A DNA stretch of 64,000 nucleotides from TM7 phylum sp. oral taxon 348 (GTDB lineage: Bacteria; Patescibacteriota; Saccharimonadia; Saccharimonadales; Saccharimonadaceae): contig SDRW01000001.1 of assembly GCA_007845485.1 (NCBI GenBank), positions 124,001 to 188,000 of the forward strand, read 5' to 3'. The notes under the pieces were generated by a model that saw only the letters and a list, made by a program, of their open reading frames with translations, did no database searches and was not told the DNA's origin. The translations under genes were made by a program, and so were the position numbers. This document shows, piece by piece, positions 46,964 to 56,200 of this stretch (its first letter is position 1; the number at the start of each line of letters is the position of its first letter).

Positions 46964-47170
46964 ATGACAAAGAAAAAGAGAACTAAAAAATATCAAGGGG
47001 CAAAATCTGACTCCAAAAAACCAACAATAATTCACGTATCAGCCGTAAAACGTAGCAAACACGGACAATGGTGGTATGACAACAAAAAGAAAGTGCAAAT
47101 CGCTGCTTCCGTTATAATCATATCCATTATTATGGTGTGGTTAATTGTTGATTTTTTACATACCATTTAA
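46964..47170 (+). CDS. Small basic single-helix membrane protein
   Basis: 68 residues. A strongly basic N-terminal half (TKKKRTKKYQGAKSDSKKP) precedes one membrane helix (VQIAASVIIISIIMVWLIVD, about 45-64). Function unknown; a basic cytoplasmic tail next to a helix is common for proteins touching nucleic acid or the Sec machinery. It overlaps the convergent folD end by 15 bases. No close family was recognised. Confidence 0.65.
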   Translation: MTKKKRTKKYQGAKSDSKKPTIIHVSAVKRSKHGQWWYDNKKKVQIAASVIIISIIMVWLIVDFLHTI

Positions 47171-47977
47171 CTTAGCCTGACGATAGGCTGCTAAAATAGT
47201 ATTATCAAATAATGCGGCGACCGTTAATGGTCCAACGCCACCTTTATCTGGTGTGATTATTAGATCCTTACGCTCACGAACATCATCAGATAGATCGCCT
47301 TTTATAATACCTTTCTCACTCGCTGTCCCAGCATCAATAACTACAGCACCAGATTTTAACATTGAGCTTTTTATAAGACTCGTCACTCCTGTTGCAGTAA
47401 CTATAACATCGTATTTGGGGATTTCTATATACAAGTCATACCCATCCCCCTTTTCAAAAACATCTACATTATAACCAGATTCTTTCCAAAGACGAGTAAG
47501 TGGAGCGCCTACAAGTTTACCTCGACCAACTATAGCAACATTTTTGCCAGATAAATCTATACCATAGCCTGACAATAACCAATTAATCGCCATAGGTGTA
47601 GCTGGTGTAAAATTACCCCCAGAAAGTCCGTCAACATCCTTATTAGGATTAATATGTGATAATATTTGATCAGTATCCAAATCGCCAGGTAGGGGTAGTT
47701 GAACAATAATACCATGAATACTATCGTCACGAGAAAGTGTATTGAGTCTCTTGATTATAGTATCGGCATTTTCTTTATAGACACTAAATTCTACTAAAAT
47801 ATCATTAGCATAAGCTTTCTTTAGATTAATATACGTATCTATTACTTTATTGCCGCTATCTACATACACAACAGATAGTTTAGGTATGATCTTTTTTGAT
47901 TGACGCAAATTTCTTACTTGCTTAAGTTGGCGTACTTTTACAAAACTAGCAAGCTCAGCCCCATTTAAAATCTTCAT
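47156..47977 (-). CDS. folD: FolD methylenetetrahydrofolate dehydrogenase/cyclohydrolase
   Basis: 273 residues from the ATG at 47977 (MKILNGAELASFVK). The catalytic Lys/Tyr region is SVVYVDSGNKVIDTYINLKK, with IVQLPLPGDLD, PNKDVDGLSGGN, the NADP site VGRGKLVGAPLTRLW and DKGGVGPLTVAALFDNT. It interconverts methylene-, methenyl- and formyl-THF and works with GlyA (54186) in one-carbon supply. Earlier ATGs up to 48025 are rejected because TATAAT (47985-47990) ends 7 bases before 47977. Confidence 0.95.
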   Translation of the reverse strand: MKILNGAELASFVKVRQLKQVRNLRQSKKIIPKLSVVYVDSGNKVIDTYINLKKAYANDILVEFSVYKENADTIIKRLNTLSRDDSIHGIIVQLPLPGDLDTDQILSHINPNKDVDGLSGGNFTPATPMAINWLLSGYGIDLSGKNVAIVGRGKLVGAPLTRLWKESGYNVDVFEKGDGYDLYIEIPKYDVIVTATGVTSLIKSSMLKSGAVVIDAGTASEKGIIKGDLSDDVRERKDLIITPDKGGVGPLTVAALFDNTILAAYRQAKLNGM

Positions 47978-47984
47978 AGTCTTT

Positions 47985-47990
47985 ATTATA
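47985..47990 (-). promoter_or_regulatory. -10 element of folD
   Basis: TATAAT on the minus strand, 7 bases before the ATG at 47977; back to back with the tRNA-Arg promoter. Confidence 0.55.
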
Positions 47991-48002
47991 CTATGTAAAG
48001 TG

Positions 48003-48011
48003 TGATAAAAT
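48003..48011 (+). promoter_or_regulatory. Extended -10 promoter of tRNA-Arg (UCG)
   Basis: TGA-TAAAAT ending 10 bases before the tRNA. Confidence 0.5.
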
Positions 48012-48021
48012 GAAATTGTAA

Positions 48022-48098
48022 GCACCTGTAGCTCAGCGGATTAGAGCACTGGTCTTCGGAACCAGGTGTCGTACGTTCGAATCGTACCAGGTGTACCA
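48022..48098 (+). tRNA. tRNA-Arg (UCG)
   Basis: Complete cloverleaf with encoded CCA. Anticodon stem CTGGT/ACCAG holds loop CTTCGGA, giving TCG. The first acceptor pair is G-U. Confidence 0.94.
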
Positions 48099-48118
48099 AG
48101 AATTTATTTACTACATAG

Positions 48119-48153
48119 TATATCGCCCATATTTGTTGGCGATATATTTTATA
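48119..48153 (+). terminator. Terminator after tRNA-Arg (UCG)
   Basis: TATATCGCC and GGCGATATA form a perfect 9-pair stem with a 10-base loop, followed by TTTTATATT. It also separates the tRNA from the convergent RCC1 gene. Confidence 0.6.
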
Positions 48154-48158
48154 TTCAC

Positions 48159-50909
48159 TTAATATCTTACTGCATTACTCAAATCTAAAAGACCATTTGT
48201 TTGGGTAGGTACTATTGAATTAAAAGATGAATTACCAGGTGAGATAAATCCTCCGTCCAATCCCCAACAATATATGCCATAGCCTGTAGCAGCACAAGTT
48301 CTATTTTCCCCAGTTGCTATCGATCTAATATATTGCCCATGTAATGGCGTGCCATTTGTTTTAACTGCTACGGGGCTAGACTTACTTGTTTTAGACCCAT
48401 CCCCTAACTGTCCATAGTTATTATTTCCCCAGCAGTAAATAACATTATTTGCAATAACACATGTATGGGTAGAGCTAGAGCTAATAGCTCCTATTGATTT
48501 ATCTTTTAATACAGAATTGGTGCTCTTGGCATTTATAGCACCAGACTTAGGAATGCGAACATTTGTGGAACTAGATCCATAGCCAAGCCTATTTTCTGTT
48601 CCCCAGCAGTATAGTTGAGACTTAATATCAACTGCACAAGAGATACCGTTTGAGACTGTAATTAAAACTTTAGAGATATCATTAACAGGATCACCTACCT
48701 CAATGAGCTTAGGTGACTTAACTAAACCAGTTCCACTTGATTCTCCTTTTAAATTTTTACCCCAACAATATACTTTTTTATCAGCCAAGGCACAGGTATT
48801 ATCACCTCCAGCTACTATATCAGTAGTTTTTCCATGAAGTCCAGAAGCAGAGTCAGCACTCACAAGTACAGCTCTGGAACTAGAACTGCCCAATCCATTT
48901 CCTAAAGTTCCAGCAGCTCCCCAGCAATATACATTACCCTCAGCTATAGCACAGGCATGTGACTTTCCTACAGTTACCTTAGTAACTTTCTTGTGAGAAA
49001 AAGTGTCGCCTACATTAGCAATCACTGGGACTGGTTTTGATCTATTAATACTTGTTCCGTCACCCAAATTAGAGTAAGTATTCTCCCCCCAACAATATGC
49101 TTTACTACTGATTACAGCACAACCAAACGAAGGGCTATCGCCATCACTAAGATCAACATTAGTAGCTCTACCATTAACTACAGCTCTATCATCTTCTCCA
49201 GCAATAAGAACCGGTCTCTTTCTAATATTAGATGTGCCGTCACCAACTGAACTCTTAATATTTCTACCCCAACAATAAAGCTTATTATTCGCAATAGAAC
49301 ATACATTGCTAGACACTGCTAAAGAGGTACGGAAATTAGGAGTATTTCCTCCACGTAATGCACCATCATGAGATATGGGACTTACTGGATCAGGAGCTTT
49401 TCTATAATTACCAGTACCAGTAGATCCTGCGTCATTTCTACCCCAACAATATATCCAGCTATTTAAACTAGCACATCCGCCAAAATCACCAGCGGATATA
49501 GATTCTATTTGTTTACCATATAATAAATTCTTTGAAGGAGTAGAACTTGCGTCAACGGGTTTATTATATCTTTCTCCACCTGATGAACCACCATGTCGGG
49601 TTCGCCCCCAGCAGTATGGCTTAGAGTCAGCGACTACACATGTATTAATATGCGAAGTGGATACATCTGTTACTTTTTTATTTTTTAAAATACTGTTATT
49701 ACTTATATCTACAGGGCTAGATCTATCATACGTATCACCAGTACCCAGTTGACCATCATCATTTCTACCCCAACAATAAAGCCTCCCTTCAGCTATAGCA
49801 CAGGTATGTTCACCTTTTAGGGATATTTTCTCAACTCTTTTTCCTTCCATAGGACTGCCTGCGCCCACTTCAAATGGTCTAGGTCGGTCATTATTATCAC
49901 CAGTACCCAGTTGACCATAGTTATTCTTTCCCCAACAATAAAGTTTATCACCCGCTATAGCACAAGCGTAATTGTTCCATACAGATGTACCAATATCAGT
50001 GACTTGCTTATCATATATACCAGTATTAGTACTTACAGGCAGTGGCGTCTCTGAATCCGAATAAGATCCATTACCAAAAACTCCATCTTTATTTTGACCC
50101 AAGCAATAGGCCTTATATTCTGCTATTATGCACGTGTAACCGTATCCCGCAGAAACCTTATCAACTCTCTTATTATTTATACTACCAAGATTAATTCTAG
50201 TAGCAAAATTATATTGGCCTGGACCACCAAATCCGCTAGAATTGCTCATATTACCCCAGCAATACATTTTACCCTCAGATGTTGCACAAACATGTAATCT
50301 ACCCGCGGAGACTTGATCAACTTCTTTATCCTTTAGATCGCTATTAGGGTCACTAGAAGTATCAGCTGGAACAGGCCAATCATAATAGGAACCATATTTA
50401 GCTTTTTCATCATAGTAGTAATAGCCAACACCTATACGCATAGCACTATTATCTCCCCAGCAATAAACCTTTTTGCCAGATACAGCGCATACTACATCAT
50501 CACCGATATCCATCTGAATAGGCTTGTAATCTGAAACTACAGGAGTTATGGGAATGTCCACTTTTTCGTTAGCTTTATATGTAGTATGTCCAAATTGAAC
50601 ACTACCATTAGACGATAAATATATGTTTGAAGAGCTTGAATTTATCTTATAATCATAAGTTACATTTGAGCCAATACTACCGCTTCCTATCAATGATGAG
50701 CCCTGTACACTATCGTCAGCGCCTTTAATTGCAGCCATTAGTCCTGATCTCGCAGAATTACGTGCTGTAGATATATTATCAAGATCACGCGTAGAAACTG
50801 ATAAGCTACTAAGATATTGTAAAACGATAGCAAATATAGACATAGCTACAAAAGATAAACCTACAACGATTGAAAGTATGTAACCATCTTCACTCTTCTT
50901 GCCTACCAT
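48159..50909 (-). CDS. GspK/PilX-like minor pilin carrying 14 RCC1 repeats (putative pilus-tip propeller)
   Basis: 916 residues. The N-terminus (MVGKKSEDGYILSIVV, then GLSFVAMSIFAIVLQYL) has a prepilin-like leader ending in Gly and a hydrophobic helix. Glu at mature position 5 is absent, as in the GspK tip subunit. From about residue 140 to 895 there are 14 repeats with the pattern C-x(8)-[YC]CWG-x(n)-G; examples are LYCWGKNNYGQLGTGD and IYCWGNNNYGQLGDGS. These are RCC1/BNR-like blades, enough for two seven-bladed propellers, each with a paired Cys likely to form a disulfide outside the cell. It overlaps the upstream pilin gene by 7 bases. Role in host attachment is inferred. Confidence 0.82.
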   Translation of the reverse strand: MVGKKSEDGYILSIVVGLSFVAMSIFAIVLQYLSSLSVSTRDLDNISTARNSARSGLMAAIKGADDSVQGSSLIGSGSIGSNVTYDYKINSSSSNIYLSSNGSVQFGHTTYKANEKVDIPITPVVSDYKPIQMDIGDDVVCAVSGKKVYCWGDNSAMRIGVGYYYYDEKAKYGSYYDWPVPADTSSDPNSDLKDKEVDQVSAGRLHVCATSEGKMYCWGNMSNSSGFGGPGQYNFATRINLGSINNKRVDKVSAGYGYTCIIAEYKAYCLGQNKDGVFGNGSYSDSETPLPVSTNTGIYDKQVTDIGTSVWNNYACAIAGDKLYCWGKNNYGQLGTGDNNDRPRPFEVGAGSPMEGKRVEKISLKGEHTCAIAEGRLYCWGRNDDGQLGTGDTYDRSSPVDISNNSILKNKKVTDVSTSHINTCVVADSKPYCWGRTRHGGSSGGERYNKPVDASSTPSKNLLYGKQIESISAGDFGGCASLNSWIYCWGRNDAGSTGTGNYRKAPDPVSPISHDGALRGGNTPNFRTSLAVSSNVCSIANNKLYCWGRNIKSSVGDGTSNIRKRPVLIAGEDDRAVVNGRATNVDLSDGDSPSFGCAVISSKAYCWGENTYSNLGDGTSINRSKPVPVIANVGDTFSHKKVTKVTVGKSHACAIAEGNVYCWGAAGTLGNGLGSSSSRAVLVSADSASGLHGKTTDIVAGGDNTCALADKKVYCWGKNLKGESSGTGLVKSPKLIEVGDPVNDISKVLITVSNGISCAVDIKSQLYCWGTENRLGYGSSSTNVRIPKSGAINAKSTNSVLKDKSIGAISSSSTHTCVIANNVIYCWGNNNYGQLGDGSKTSKSSPVAVKTNGTPLHGQYIRSIATGENRTCAATGYGIYCWGLDGGFISPGNSSFNSIVPTQTNGLLDLSNAVRY

Positions 50910-51658
50910 GATATATCCTTTCTCTTATGTACGGAATATTTATACTCTTTGTCATTTATATTATATTTAGTTGTTATTTTTATAGAGACAACTTTGTTGT
51001 CTATTACAGATAGGGAAAGCGGCGGAGAATTATATTTGTATGCATAAGAATCACTATCTGGCGATAATGACGAACCATTATGATAATTAACCTCAAACCC
51101 ATCTACATTGTTTAATAATAAAATATCACGAGGAGATCCTTTATCTGGAAATTTTGTAGTAGATTCATATGGATATTTACATATAATTTTATCTTCTGGC
51201 GGCTCCACGATAGATCTTCTATAAAGCCTAGAATTATGCACATAGTAAACTACATTATATTTATATGGTTTGTCTGATTTACCACAGTTTTCTGTTTTAT
51301 CTGCAATAGTCGAAAGTTCTCTATCCTTACTCTGAGGCGGCTTTGTAATTGCAGGAAGTGTTAATATTAACGTACGCATAGAACTACCAGCTCCACGATA
51401 ATTCCATCCTCGCAAAGGAGCTGGATAGTCTATATTATTGGAAAGAGGAGCCCTTCTAAATTCGATAGTACGATCTAAATCTGAATCTATTACACTAATA
51501 GCCTTATGAGAATCATTAATCTGTTTAGCCCGCAATATTTGGCCATATTGTAAGCTAGAAAATTTTACTAATGTAGGCACTAACCCTATTATCACAACAG
51601 AAGATATAGATATTACCAATATAAGTTCTACGACAGTAAAACCATATCTATTGCGCAT
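50903..51658 (-). CDS. Minor pilin, PilW/GspJ-like
   Basis: 251 residues. Prepilin signal MRNRYG, cleaved before FTVVELILVISISSVVIIGL, includes the Glu at mature position 5. The rest is a secreted domain with two Cys near the middle (NCGKSDK; KIICKYP) and strands typical of a GspJ/PilW pseudopilin. It is the middle gene of the three-gene minor-pilin operon, overlapping both neighbours, so it should act in the tip complex with them. Confidence 0.85.
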   Translation of the reverse strand: MRNRYGFTVVELILVISISSVVIIGLVPTLVKFSSLQYGQILRAKQINDSHKAISVIDSDLDRTIEFRRAPLSNNIDYPAPLRGWNYRGAGSSMRTLILTLPAITKPPQSKDRELSTIADKTENCGKSDKPYKYNVVYYVHNSRLYRRSIVEPPEDKIICKYPYESTTKFPDKGSPRDILLLNNVDGFEVNYHNGSSLSPDSDSYAYKYNSPPLSLSVIDNKVVSIKITTKYNINDKEYKYSVHKRKDISW

Positions 51659-52100
51659 ATGTTACCTGCTTCACAGTCTCTATATTAGTAGCGTTGGGAT
51701 GATTTTTATACTCTACGACAGATTCAACCACCACATAGTTATCGCATCCTTTGCTAGGACTTGTGTATGCCACTATTTTCTGATTTATAGAAGAATTTTT
51801 TATTTCAGTAAGATTGGAGTCTTCATTAAATTTATCACCCTTATTAATAAGACTCTTCTGAAACTTAGTCACAGAGTCATTTATTTCACATTCAAAACCA
51901 GCTTCTTTTAGATTTTTTATTCGTTTATAGCGCTCTAGATTAACATTAGCTATCATAATAGCAACGGAACGAAGTTTTCTCCATTCAAACGATCTAGTTG
52001 CATAAATATAAGACTGAGCTAAAACGCCGATGACAATTGATGCAACAAATACAGATACTAAAACTTCCACAAGAGTAAACCCACCTTCTGATTTGTCCAT
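51648..52100 (-). CDS. Minor pilin, PilV/GspI-like
   Basis: 150 residues. Signal MDKSEGG followed by FTLVEVLVSVFVASIVIGVL, with Glu at mature position 5. The body has two Cys (FECEIN; GCDNYVV) and a short beta-rich domain like GspI/PilV. It opens the operon; TGT-TATAAT ends 11 bases before the ATG. Together with the next two genes it resembles the I-J-K tip set of type II secretion and type IV pili. Confidence 0.85.
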   Translation of the reverse strand: MDKSEGGFTLVEVLVSVFVASIVIGVLAQSYIYATRSFEWRKLRSVAIMIANVNLERYKRIKNLKEAGFECEINDSVTKFQKSLINKGDKFNEDSNLTEIKNSSINQKIVAYTSPSKGCDNYVVVESVVEYKNHPNATNIETVKQVTYAQ

Positions 52101-52111
52101 AGTTATTATGG

Positions 52112-52120
52112 ATTATAACA
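52112..52120 (-). promoter_or_regulatory. Extended -10 promoter of the minor-pilin operon
   Basis: TGT-TATAAT on the minus strand (TATAAT at 52112-52117), 11 bases before the ATG at 52100. Confidence 0.55.
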
Positions 52121-52215
52121 TGTTAAAACTAATAATATCAAAGATTTATTTAAGTTATATTTTATTCTTCCATACTTGAAAAAGTACGCATTATTTAGTA
52201 CAATTACATAGACTT

Positions 52216-52292
52216 GGGTCAGTAGCTCAGCTGGTTAGAGCACCTGCCTCTTAAGCAGGGTGTCCTGGGTTCGATTCCCAGCTGACCCACCA
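52216..52292 (+). tRNA. tRNA-Lys (CUU)
   Basis: Complete cloverleaf with encoded CCA. Anticodon stem CCTGC/GCAGG holds loop CTCTTAA, giving CTT; acceptor stem GGGTCAG pairs with CTGACCC. Confidence 0.96.
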
Positions 52293-52418: not shown

Positions 52419-53438
52419 ATGAAACTAATTGATAATCCTTCTTTATCTAACTACTTAACTATGAAAATTGGTGGTTCAGCTCTGATGATGGCTGAAGCGT
52501 ATAATCTAAAAGATATTCAAGACATAATACAAAAATGTAAAAATGAGAAACTAAAATTCTACATCCTAGGAGGTGGAAGTAATATAATTGCGCATGATGA
52601 AACTTTTAATGGCATAATCATACAAAATAAAATTACTGGAATGAATGTCATTAAAGAAGACGGAGAATCTGCTGTAATAAAAGCTGGCAGCGGTGAACCA
52701 TGGGATGACCTAGTAAAAATGTCTATACATATGAACCTCAGTGGTATTGAAGCTATGTCAATCATACCAGGAACTTGTGGAGCAGCACCTGTACAAAATA
52801 TTGGCGCCTATGGTCAAGAAATAGCAGACACCTTGATAGAAGTGGAGGCTTTTAATACTGATAGCGGCGAGGTTGAAACTATCGCAGCTAAAGATTGTGA
52901 ATTCAAATACCGAAGCAGTATTTTTAGAGATAAACTACCTGGGAAATATATAATAATATCTATCACTCTACGCCTTTCAAAATCTAAGCCAAAACCACCA
53001 TTTTATGCGAATTTACAAAAATATTTAGATAATGCGCATATCACAGACTATAATGTATCGGATATACGCCAAGCTGTCATACAGATTAGGCAAACTAAAC
53101 TTCCCGATCCTGCGAAACAACCAAATTCAGGCTCTTTCTTTAAAAATGCCATAGTAACAAAGCAAAAATTAGAACAGCTATTAGCTAATTATCCAAATGC
53201 ACCATATTATGATATGGGAAATAATCAATATAAAGTACCGACTGGCTGGCTCATTGATAACTGTAACTTAAAAGGTAAATTAATAAAGGGTATGCGCATA
53301 AATCCAGCAAACGCCTTAGTTCTAATTAATGAATCTGCTAGTGGATATAAAGACTTAGCTGCTGCCCGTGCAGAAATCACAGCTACCGTATATGATAAGT
53401 TTGGCATAAAAATAGAGCAAGAGCCCCTTGAAATTTAA
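52419..53438 (+). CDS. murB: UDP-N-acetylenolpyruvoylglucosamine reductase
   Basis: 339 residues, type I (E. coli-like). FAD motif FYILGGGSNIIAHDETFNG, PGTCGAAPVQNIGAYGQEI, the Tyr-loop FKYRSSIFRDKLPGKY, and catalytic Ser in QPNSGSFFKN. It reduces the enolpyruvyl product of MurA (56269) in peptidoglycan synthesis. A monocistronic, leaderless gene judging by its promoter. Confidence 0.96.
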   Translation: MKLIDNPSLSNYLTMKIGGSALMMAEAYNLKDIQDIIQKCKNEKLKFYILGGGSNIIAHDETFNGIIIQNKITGMNVIKEDGESAVIKAGSGEPWDDLVKMSIHMNLSGIEAMSIIPGTCGAAPVQNIGAYGQEIADTLIEVEAFNTDSGEVETIAAKDCEFKYRSSIFRDKLPGKYIIISITLRLSKSKPKPPFYANLQKYLDNAHITDYNVSDIRQAVIQIRQTKLPDPAKQPNSGSFFKNAIVTKQKLEQLLANYPNAPYYDMGNNQYKVPTGWLIDNCNLKGKLIKGMRINPANALVLINESASGYKDLAAARAEITATVYDKFGIKIEQEPLEI

Positions 53439-53528: not shown

Positions 53529-54026
53529 ATGAATCTTCAAAAATCAAAACAAGCTGGCTTTACATTAATAGAGCTTCTTATAGTAATAGTAGTTATTGCA
53601 ATCTTGGCAGCCATTTCTGTGGTTACATTTACAGGGATTCAGCAACAAGGTCGCGATTCTCGCCGAGCTGGCGATTCGGCAAATATTGTTAAATTAGTTT
53701 CAACATGTATGGCTTCTGAAAGTGGCGCTGAGTGGAAGGATATTTCTACTTTAGCAGCACTTAAAACAGCCGTTAAATCTGGTGGAAAATGTTCAAAATC
53801 TAGCAATATTAATGATGAAACTCTAGATACATTAGTAGTTTCAGATCCTGCACATAGTAGCAAGATAGAAATGCAGTATCAAATTTGTGCTCCTACAGGA
53901 ACTTCTGACGAAAACATTAAAGATAATATTACTGGAATTAAGATAGCTTACTGGCACGAAAAAGACAACAGAACAAAATCTGTTACTGCTGGTGAAGCAG
54001 GTAATTGTAAAGCACCTGATGCTTAG
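53529..54026 (+). CDS. Type IV major-type pilin (PilA/PilE-like)
   Basis: 165 residues. Signal MNLQKSKQAG followed by FTLIELLIVIVVIAILAAIS, with Glu at mature position 5 and the classic N-terminal helix. A globular domain with two pairs of Cys (VSTCMAS, GGKCSKS, QICAPTG, GNCKAPD) follows. The gene stands alone with GGGGG 13 bases before the ATG and a strong terminator after it, as expected for an abundant subunit. It lies near the minor-pilin operon. Confidence 0.92.
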   Translation: MNLQKSKQAGFTLIELLIVIVVIAILAAISVVTFTGIQQQGRDSRRAGDSANIVKLVSTCMASESGAEWKDISTLAALKTAVKSGGKCSKSSNINDETLDTLVVSDPAHSSKIEMQYQICAPTGTSDENIKDNITGIKIAYWHEKDNRTKSVTAGEAGNCKAPDA

Positions 54027-55510: not shown

Positions 55511-56137
55511 TTAGACAAATTTATCATCAACATACCGGCCATCATCTTCATCTTCATCTTCACTAGGACGATCATCACACAAATCTTCATACTTGGAATT
55601 GATCATTTCCTCTGTAGAAACTTTTTTATTTACAGGATCTGCCAAATACGAATTGATTTCACTACGAAAATCAGCATCAAATTGCAAAAGTTCAATAGCA
55701 TACATACTGCATTCTAGGTCGCAACCCAGATTTAAGTATGTGAAAACTCCATTTGGTGATGTGAATTGAATACCCCAATCATCATCATTTGGTTCAATAA
55801 TATCAATCCGATACAGCTCACCCTTACCACGGCTTGGTTTGCTGTAATACTTTCGATACATTAGGCGTTTAGCAGCAAACGCCAAATAGCCGATACCCAA
55901 CATACACATTGACGCAAAGTAGATTTTCGCAAAAATCTCAAGCACAATATTTGGACAATCGCTTGAATCAATAGCAAAAAGACCAACGAACCCAACGCAA
56001 GCTGTCACAATGTAAAGTACACAGGAAAACCAAAGCTCTCCACCCAACTTGTATGATTTGAAGGCTTGTTCAGCATGCCAACTTTCATTCCGCATGGGAA
56101 CATCAGTTGCAGTATAGTAGATAGATGAAGTGCTCAT
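55511..56137 (-). CDS. Two-helix membrane protein of unknown function
   Basis: 208 residues from the ATG at 56137 (MSTSSIYY), chosen because AAGGAGG stands 8 bases before it; an earlier ATG at 56170 would include the ribosome site. Two membrane helices (about 35-60 and 72-95) are followed by a cytoplasmic domain (LYRIDIIEPNDDDWGIQFTS) and a very acidic tail (RPSEDEDEDDGRY). No enzyme motif is seen. A consensus -35/-10 pair precedes it. Unrecognised. Confidence 0.7.
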   Translation of the reverse strand: MSTSSIYYTATDVPMRNESWHAEQAFKSYKLGGELWFSCVLYIVTACVGFVGLFAIDSSDCPNIVLEIFAKIYFASMCMLGIGYLAFAAKRLMYRKYYSKPSRGKGELYRIDIIEPNDDDWGIQFTSPNGVFTYLNLGCDLECSMYAIELLQFDADFRSEINSYLADPVNKKVSTEEMINSKYEDLCDDRPSEDEDEDDGRYVDDKFV

Positions 56138-56200
56138 TATGAGCATCCTCCTTAGGTTGGAAATGTACAAGTACAGTGGAATTACCGCACTCCAGTTGCT

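Follow-up and report, generated by a model that had tools for sequence, protein, structure and literature searches.

The stretch of DNA analysed here, called the window, spans 64,000 nucleotides of the 890 kb genome of TM7 phylum sp. oral taxon 348 (family Saccharimonadaceae; contig SDRW01000001.1, positions 124,001 to 188,000), and its minus strand carries at 48159-52100 an operon of three minor-pilin genes, the last of which encodes a pilin joined to RCC1 repeats. The genes overlap by 11 and 7 bases in the list of open reading frames (ORFs). The first (51648-52100, minus) encodes a PilV/GspI-like minor pilin of 150 residues with a class III leader whose Gly precedes FTLVEV and with Glu at position +5 (Glu5); its Pfam N_methyl match passes the cut-off (3.1e-7), and its NCBIfam PilV and GspI matches are weak and lie under theirs. 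The second (50903-51658, minus) encodes a PilW/GspJ-like minor pilin of 251 residues, with Gly before FTVVEL, Glu5, an LYRR motif and an N_methyl match above the cut-off; across the PilW family in 14 relatives, G6, T8, E11, W85, C125, L145, Y146, R148, C160 and D178 are invariant. The third, complete including its stop (48159-50909, minus), encodes a PilX/GspK-like modular pilin of 916 residues with 14 RCC1 blades. A preliminary description of this DNA had proposed overlapping genes of the GspI/PilV, GspJ/PilW and GspK/PilX kinds, and its ORFs are exact, with N_methyl found in the first two.

The 916-residue protein begins with the leader MVGKKSEDG followed by YILSIVVGLSFVAMSIFAIVLQ, giving Gly at -1, Tyr at +1 and Ile at +5, where canonical pilins carry Glu; the prepilin N-terminus without Glu5 described earlier is therefore present. 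Leader and pilin alpha-1 helix make up residues 1-66 (50712-50909, minus), followed by a small four-stranded pilin sheet in the predicted model at residues 67-126 (50532-50711, minus). The Gly-Tyr junction is seen and a PilD gene lies in the genome, yet the protein has neither Glu5 nor a Pfam N_methyl match. Lacking Glu5 and encoded directly behind I and J genes, it is a K-type pilin, and the fusion of such an N-terminus to RCC1 repeats is also the make-up of PilX2 from Nanosynbacter lyticus TM7x, a minor pilin published in 2025 whose RCC1 propeller has seven blades (PMC12206443). The remainder matches PF25390 (RCC1-like domain, 1.9e-132) and PF00415 (RCC1, 1.4e-59). As had been noted from the letters, the 14 blades are Cys-paired: all 28 Cys fall into 14 pairs, spaced C-x8-C in 13 and C-x9-C in one. 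These pairs, together with the disulfide-forming VKOR encoded in the genome, support the extracytoplasmic character implied by the earlier description.

A full-length AlphaFold2 (AF2) model, a single-chain prediction built with 17 aligned relatives, places one helix at residues 11-66 and a sheet of four strands at 73-120, followed by repeated four-stranded blades, so that the propeller and the pilin-like helix for which structure prediction had been suggested as a check are both predicted. When this model was compared with the PDB by Foldseek, the seven-bladed UVR8 ranked first (E-value 2.5e-30, template modelling (TM) score 0.89 by target, about 400 columns); UVR8 also came top in a sequence search of the PDB, and UVR8, HERC2 and RPGR are the closest solved structures to the RCC1 part. 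The last 419 residues, comprising the C-terminal seven blades, reached a predicted TM score (pTM) of 0.76 when modelled alone and gave an alignment to UVR8 some 390-400 columns long, with TM scores of 0.66-0.69 by query and 0.73-0.77 by target. Because this half alone matches UVR8 across such a length, the models support two seven-bladed RCC1 propellers rather than one large ring, with blades 1-7 at residues 127-522 (49344-50531, minus) and blades 8-14 at residues 523-916 (48162-49343, minus), the boundary between them being approximate. A single 14-bladed ring is disfavoured both by the stand-alone folding of the C-terminal seven blades and by blade counts of 7, 14 and 21 among relatives. Nor do the sequences support a recent origin of the window protein's two propellers by duplication of one, as blades seven apart (i and i+7) show no greater similarity than other pairings. 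In a quick tree, the N and C halves of several 14-blade relatives fall in separate clades, with the exception of L171 (L numbers are our locus designations), whose halves are neighbours.

These counts come from a survey in which the regions around RCC1 matches were read at 100 places in relatives. It yielded 62 complete RCC1 proteins whose N-terminus is of the prepilin type, counting the window's own. Seven blades were counted in 40 of them, 14 in 13 and 21 in one, amounting to 54 of 62 with a multiple of seven; the other eight have 5, 11-13 or 16, counts that partly reflect long gaps in which a degenerate blade could have gone undetected. This preference independently supports closed propellers. 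The single 21-blade protein is a K-type pilin (L141:3804-7796) with apparently three propellers. RCC1 matches occur in 123 of the 295 genomes of the window's family, which also supplied 61 of the 64 RCC1-positives in a class-wide sample and 8 of the 26 found among 380 genomes of a phylum-wide sample; in the phylum sample, most RCC1 proteins from outside the family with a readable N-terminus are not pilins. The pilin-RCC1 fusion is common in the window's family rather than unusual, and it takes three forms: K-type pilins that follow I and J pilins, as in the window (about 20 loci, where pilin genes lie directly upstream, usually in I-J-K order), K-type pilins alone, and Glu5 pilins alone. The last group comprises 20 canonical Glu5 pilins away from I and J pilins, 18 of the 20 with exactly 7 blades (loci L106, L110, L111, L115, L120, L125, L126, L132, L134, L139, L148, L151, L153, L154, L158, L159, L166, L181 and L185); a pilus shaft could hardly accommodate the bulk at their C-terminus.

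A restriction of RCC1 to pilins is refuted, since 40 of 115 surveyed RCC1 ORFs have no pilin-like N-terminus by a motif rule. The quick tree, in which many branches are weak, scatters the Glu5-type, K-type and non-pilin RCC1 proteins with 21 changes among them and gives a single origin of the fusion no firm support. Farther afield, a Bdellovibrionaceae genome encodes a protein (L061:7479-9416) with a pilin-like N-terminus (GFTLLNF, no Glu5) and RCC1 repeats, adjoining an N_methyl pilin, and this is possibly a second lineage of bacterial predators with the architecture. In another Patescibacteria family, a 544-codon frame on the minus strand of L268 combines RCC1 without the CWG motif with a PilX-like N-terminus (GSILLYSLIISMIVL).

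Another species of the genus (L033, the same as L127) has the same block folD-pilV-pilW-pilX(RCC1)-murB, and the 916-residue frame is therefore not a chance ORF. By synteny, folD (47156-48025, minus) forms the conserved left boundary of the pilin locus and murB (52419-53438, plus) the conserved right neighbour of the operon, followed by a PilA-like pilin of 165 residues (53529-54026, plus; GFTLIELL) and glyA. The PilA-like pilin stands at this position in relatives too and, by its place, is a candidate for the major pilin of the same pilus. The operon is flanked by tRNA-Arg(tcg) (48022-48098, plus) and tRNA-Lys(ctt) (52216-52292, plus), both of which recur in relatives, and the unit from tRNA-Arg through the operon to tRNA-Lys (48022-52292) is inverted relative to L033. 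The two species share 61% identity in folD and 58% in murB, against 40% in pilV, 34% in pilW and 32% in pilX; the minor-pilin operon diverges faster than the genes around it. Adjoining glyA, at 55511-56170, lies a 219-residue protein with an acidic C-terminus and no Pfam match.

Elsewhere in the genome, two type IV pilus machineries are encoded. One, at about 16.7-29 kb of contig C8, comprises PilM, PilB, PilT, PilC, PilD and several pilins; the other, at about 200-208.6 kb of contig C5, comprises PilB, PilC, PilM, one pilin and recA (identified by its sequence rather than by a family search), with two small membrane proteins where PilN and PilO would be, and no PilT was found beside it. In TM7x, locus one includes PilT and PilD, locus two lies by recAX without PilT, and locus three holds the minor pilins (PMC12206443). 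Compared with that description, the window's genome has a TM7x-type layout of two machineries and a minor-pilin locus.

The three genes are likely to encode the I, J and K subunits of a complex at the tip of a type IV pilus, K being a modular pilin that bears two RCC1 propellers as its adhesive head; the propellers probably serve to grip the bacterial host. The genes and their operon, the conserved locus, the predicted fold with its doubled propeller, the machinery and PilD are observed components, from which the following course may be proposed. The prepilins would be inserted in the membrane, and PilD would cleave the 916-residue prepilin after Gly9. The I, J and K pilins would then join, with K expected on top by parallel with GspK and Streptococcus sanguinis PilB, because K has no Glu5 and so bulky a C-terminus would not fit within a filament. 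Given the TM7x layout, the second machinery (PilB2, PilC2, PilM2) may be the one with which this complex initiates a pilus, and the complex would so end at the pilus tip, where disulfide-stabilised propellers would bind a ligand on the host surface and tether the cell at a distance. The host-recognition role and the likeness to PilY1 suggested in the preliminary description gain independent support from a published knockout of the same architecture: in TM7x, loss of pilX2 cut host binding, given as a share of host cells, from 10.6% to 4.6% and reduced competitive fitness, and its authors put PilX2 forward as a PilY1-like adhesin (PMC12206443).

Several observations weigh against this assignment. 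The full-length AF2 model is of moderate confidence (mean predicted local distance difference test (pLDDT) 70.8, pTM 0.47), and no RCC1 protein was detected in 172 of the 295 family genomes, implying that the lifestyle can do without the module. The TM7x authors predicted no PilD signal for PilX2, which bears on the processing of K-type pilins, and their pilX2 mutant still made thin pili while its thick pili were altered in diameter and length (PMC12206443); PilX2 may thus act on both kinds of filament, and pili can be assembled without it. The altered thick pili, and the priming of assembly by PilY1 in Myxococcus (cited in PMC12206443), would also suit a structural or priming tip subunit whose propellers regulate filament number, length or retraction, with only an indirect effect on host binding. 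Thin pili nonetheless form without PilX2, many relatives lack the propeller or carry a replacement, and fast divergence is more in keeping with contact to a ligand than with a part of the machinery; we regard such a subunit as rather unlikely.

Other targets for the propellers can be envisaged, such as a surface protein of the cell itself, free polymers, glycans or DNA; eukaryotic RCC1-like domains are protein-interaction scaffolds (UVR8, HERC2, RPGR), and some minor pilins bind DNA (ComP, PMC10191384) or are thought to (ComZ, PMC8179133). Set beside the TM7x binding phenotype, a target other than the host appears improbable. The frequency in the family of RCC1 proteins without a pilin N-terminus likewise leaves room for a cytoplasmic or membrane-anchored RCC1 protein that is pilin-like at its N-terminus only and has no part in a pilus. 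Such a protein would have to be reconciled with a conserved place behind I and J pilins in overlapping genes, a Gly-Tyr or Gly-Phe leader junction, a pilin-like helix and sheet in the model, and 14 Cys pairs, and it is accordingly very improbable.

Variation of the head among relatives was surveyed by a search with the PilW family followed by reading of the surroundings. K-type pilins with Kelch-type repeats lie behind I and J pilins, in the operon position that the RCC1 pilin takes in the window, at L247:3065-5167 (above the Kelch cut-offs) and L248:4714-6906 (below them), neither of them at murB. A PilW frame of about 490-1110 residues was listed in about 55 genomes, and where such loci were read at murB-glyA, a PilA-like pilin follows and no K gene is present; at L232, L233, L234, L237, L243 and L244, for example, the PilW-like pilin measures about 700 residues with no K pilin after it. 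The extension on PilW measures roughly 430 residues; one of these long PilW proteins has a weak immunoglobulin-like match and one a glycine-rich domain. Drawn from some 20 loci, these patterns suggest a conserved pilin base with an exchangeable head. A more specific proposal, which we hold tentatively and at somewhat below an even chance, is that the folD-murB-glyA locus of this family is an exchangeable tip-adhesin cassette, in which conserved I and J pilins present a replaceable head that evolves quickly (a single or double RCC1 propeller, a Kelch-type propeller or an extended PilW) and decides which bacterial host can be caught. The choice of host by ultrasmall episymbionts is still largely unexplained, and should the tip head prove to be a cassette exchanged at one fixed locus, genomes would directly reveal candidate proteins for host recognition, which could then be tested.

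With UVR8, the RCC1-like domain of HERC2 and RCC1, the window protein shares the seven-bladed RCC1 fold, whereas those are intracellular eukaryotic proteins without a pilin anchor. Like the PilY1/PilC tip adhesins (PF05567), it would present a propeller at the pilus tip for adhesion, although PilY1 is a non-pilin with another propeller family. The propeller of the 916-residue protein matches RCC1 families, and the genome gave no PF05567 match, a weak negative, as control genomes gave none either. The independent origin relative to PilY1 suggested earlier has this difference in repeat family, RCC1 against PF05567, as its whole basis. Tip complexes capped by a subunit without Glu5 are known, and like GspK of type II secretion and the PilHIJK tip complex, the window protein lacks Glu5, is encoded behind I and J genes and is expected to cap its filament (PMC10191384); where GspK has an alpha-domain inserted in its sheet, the window protein has a C-terminal double propeller. 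Modular pilins with adhesive tip heads are a recognised class (PMC8179133), and the window protein resembles S. sanguinis PilB and PilC in placing an adhesive module behind a small pilin module, PilB having been modelled to fit at the pilus tip only (PMC8179133, PMC9934059); those modules are, however, von Willebrand factor A and lectin-like rather than RCC1, and the signal peptide of PilB is of the canonical class III type. The closest counterpart is TM7x PilX2, likewise a PilX-type minor pilin with C-terminal RCC1 repeats, a non-canonical leader, PilV and PilW alongside and a two-machinery genome, and its publication (PMC12206443) means that the idea of a propeller-bearing pilin as tip adhesin was not new. 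Judged by the published description, PilX2 has one seven-bladed propeller, whereas the window protein has 14 blades in two propellers and is therefore a variant of the PilX2 type. What is added here is the doubled, Cys-paired RCC1 propeller, a new shape for a pilus adhesin, together with the seven-fold blade counts, the occurrence of the fusion on pilins of more than one type, the fast divergence and signs that the tip may be an exchangeable cassette.
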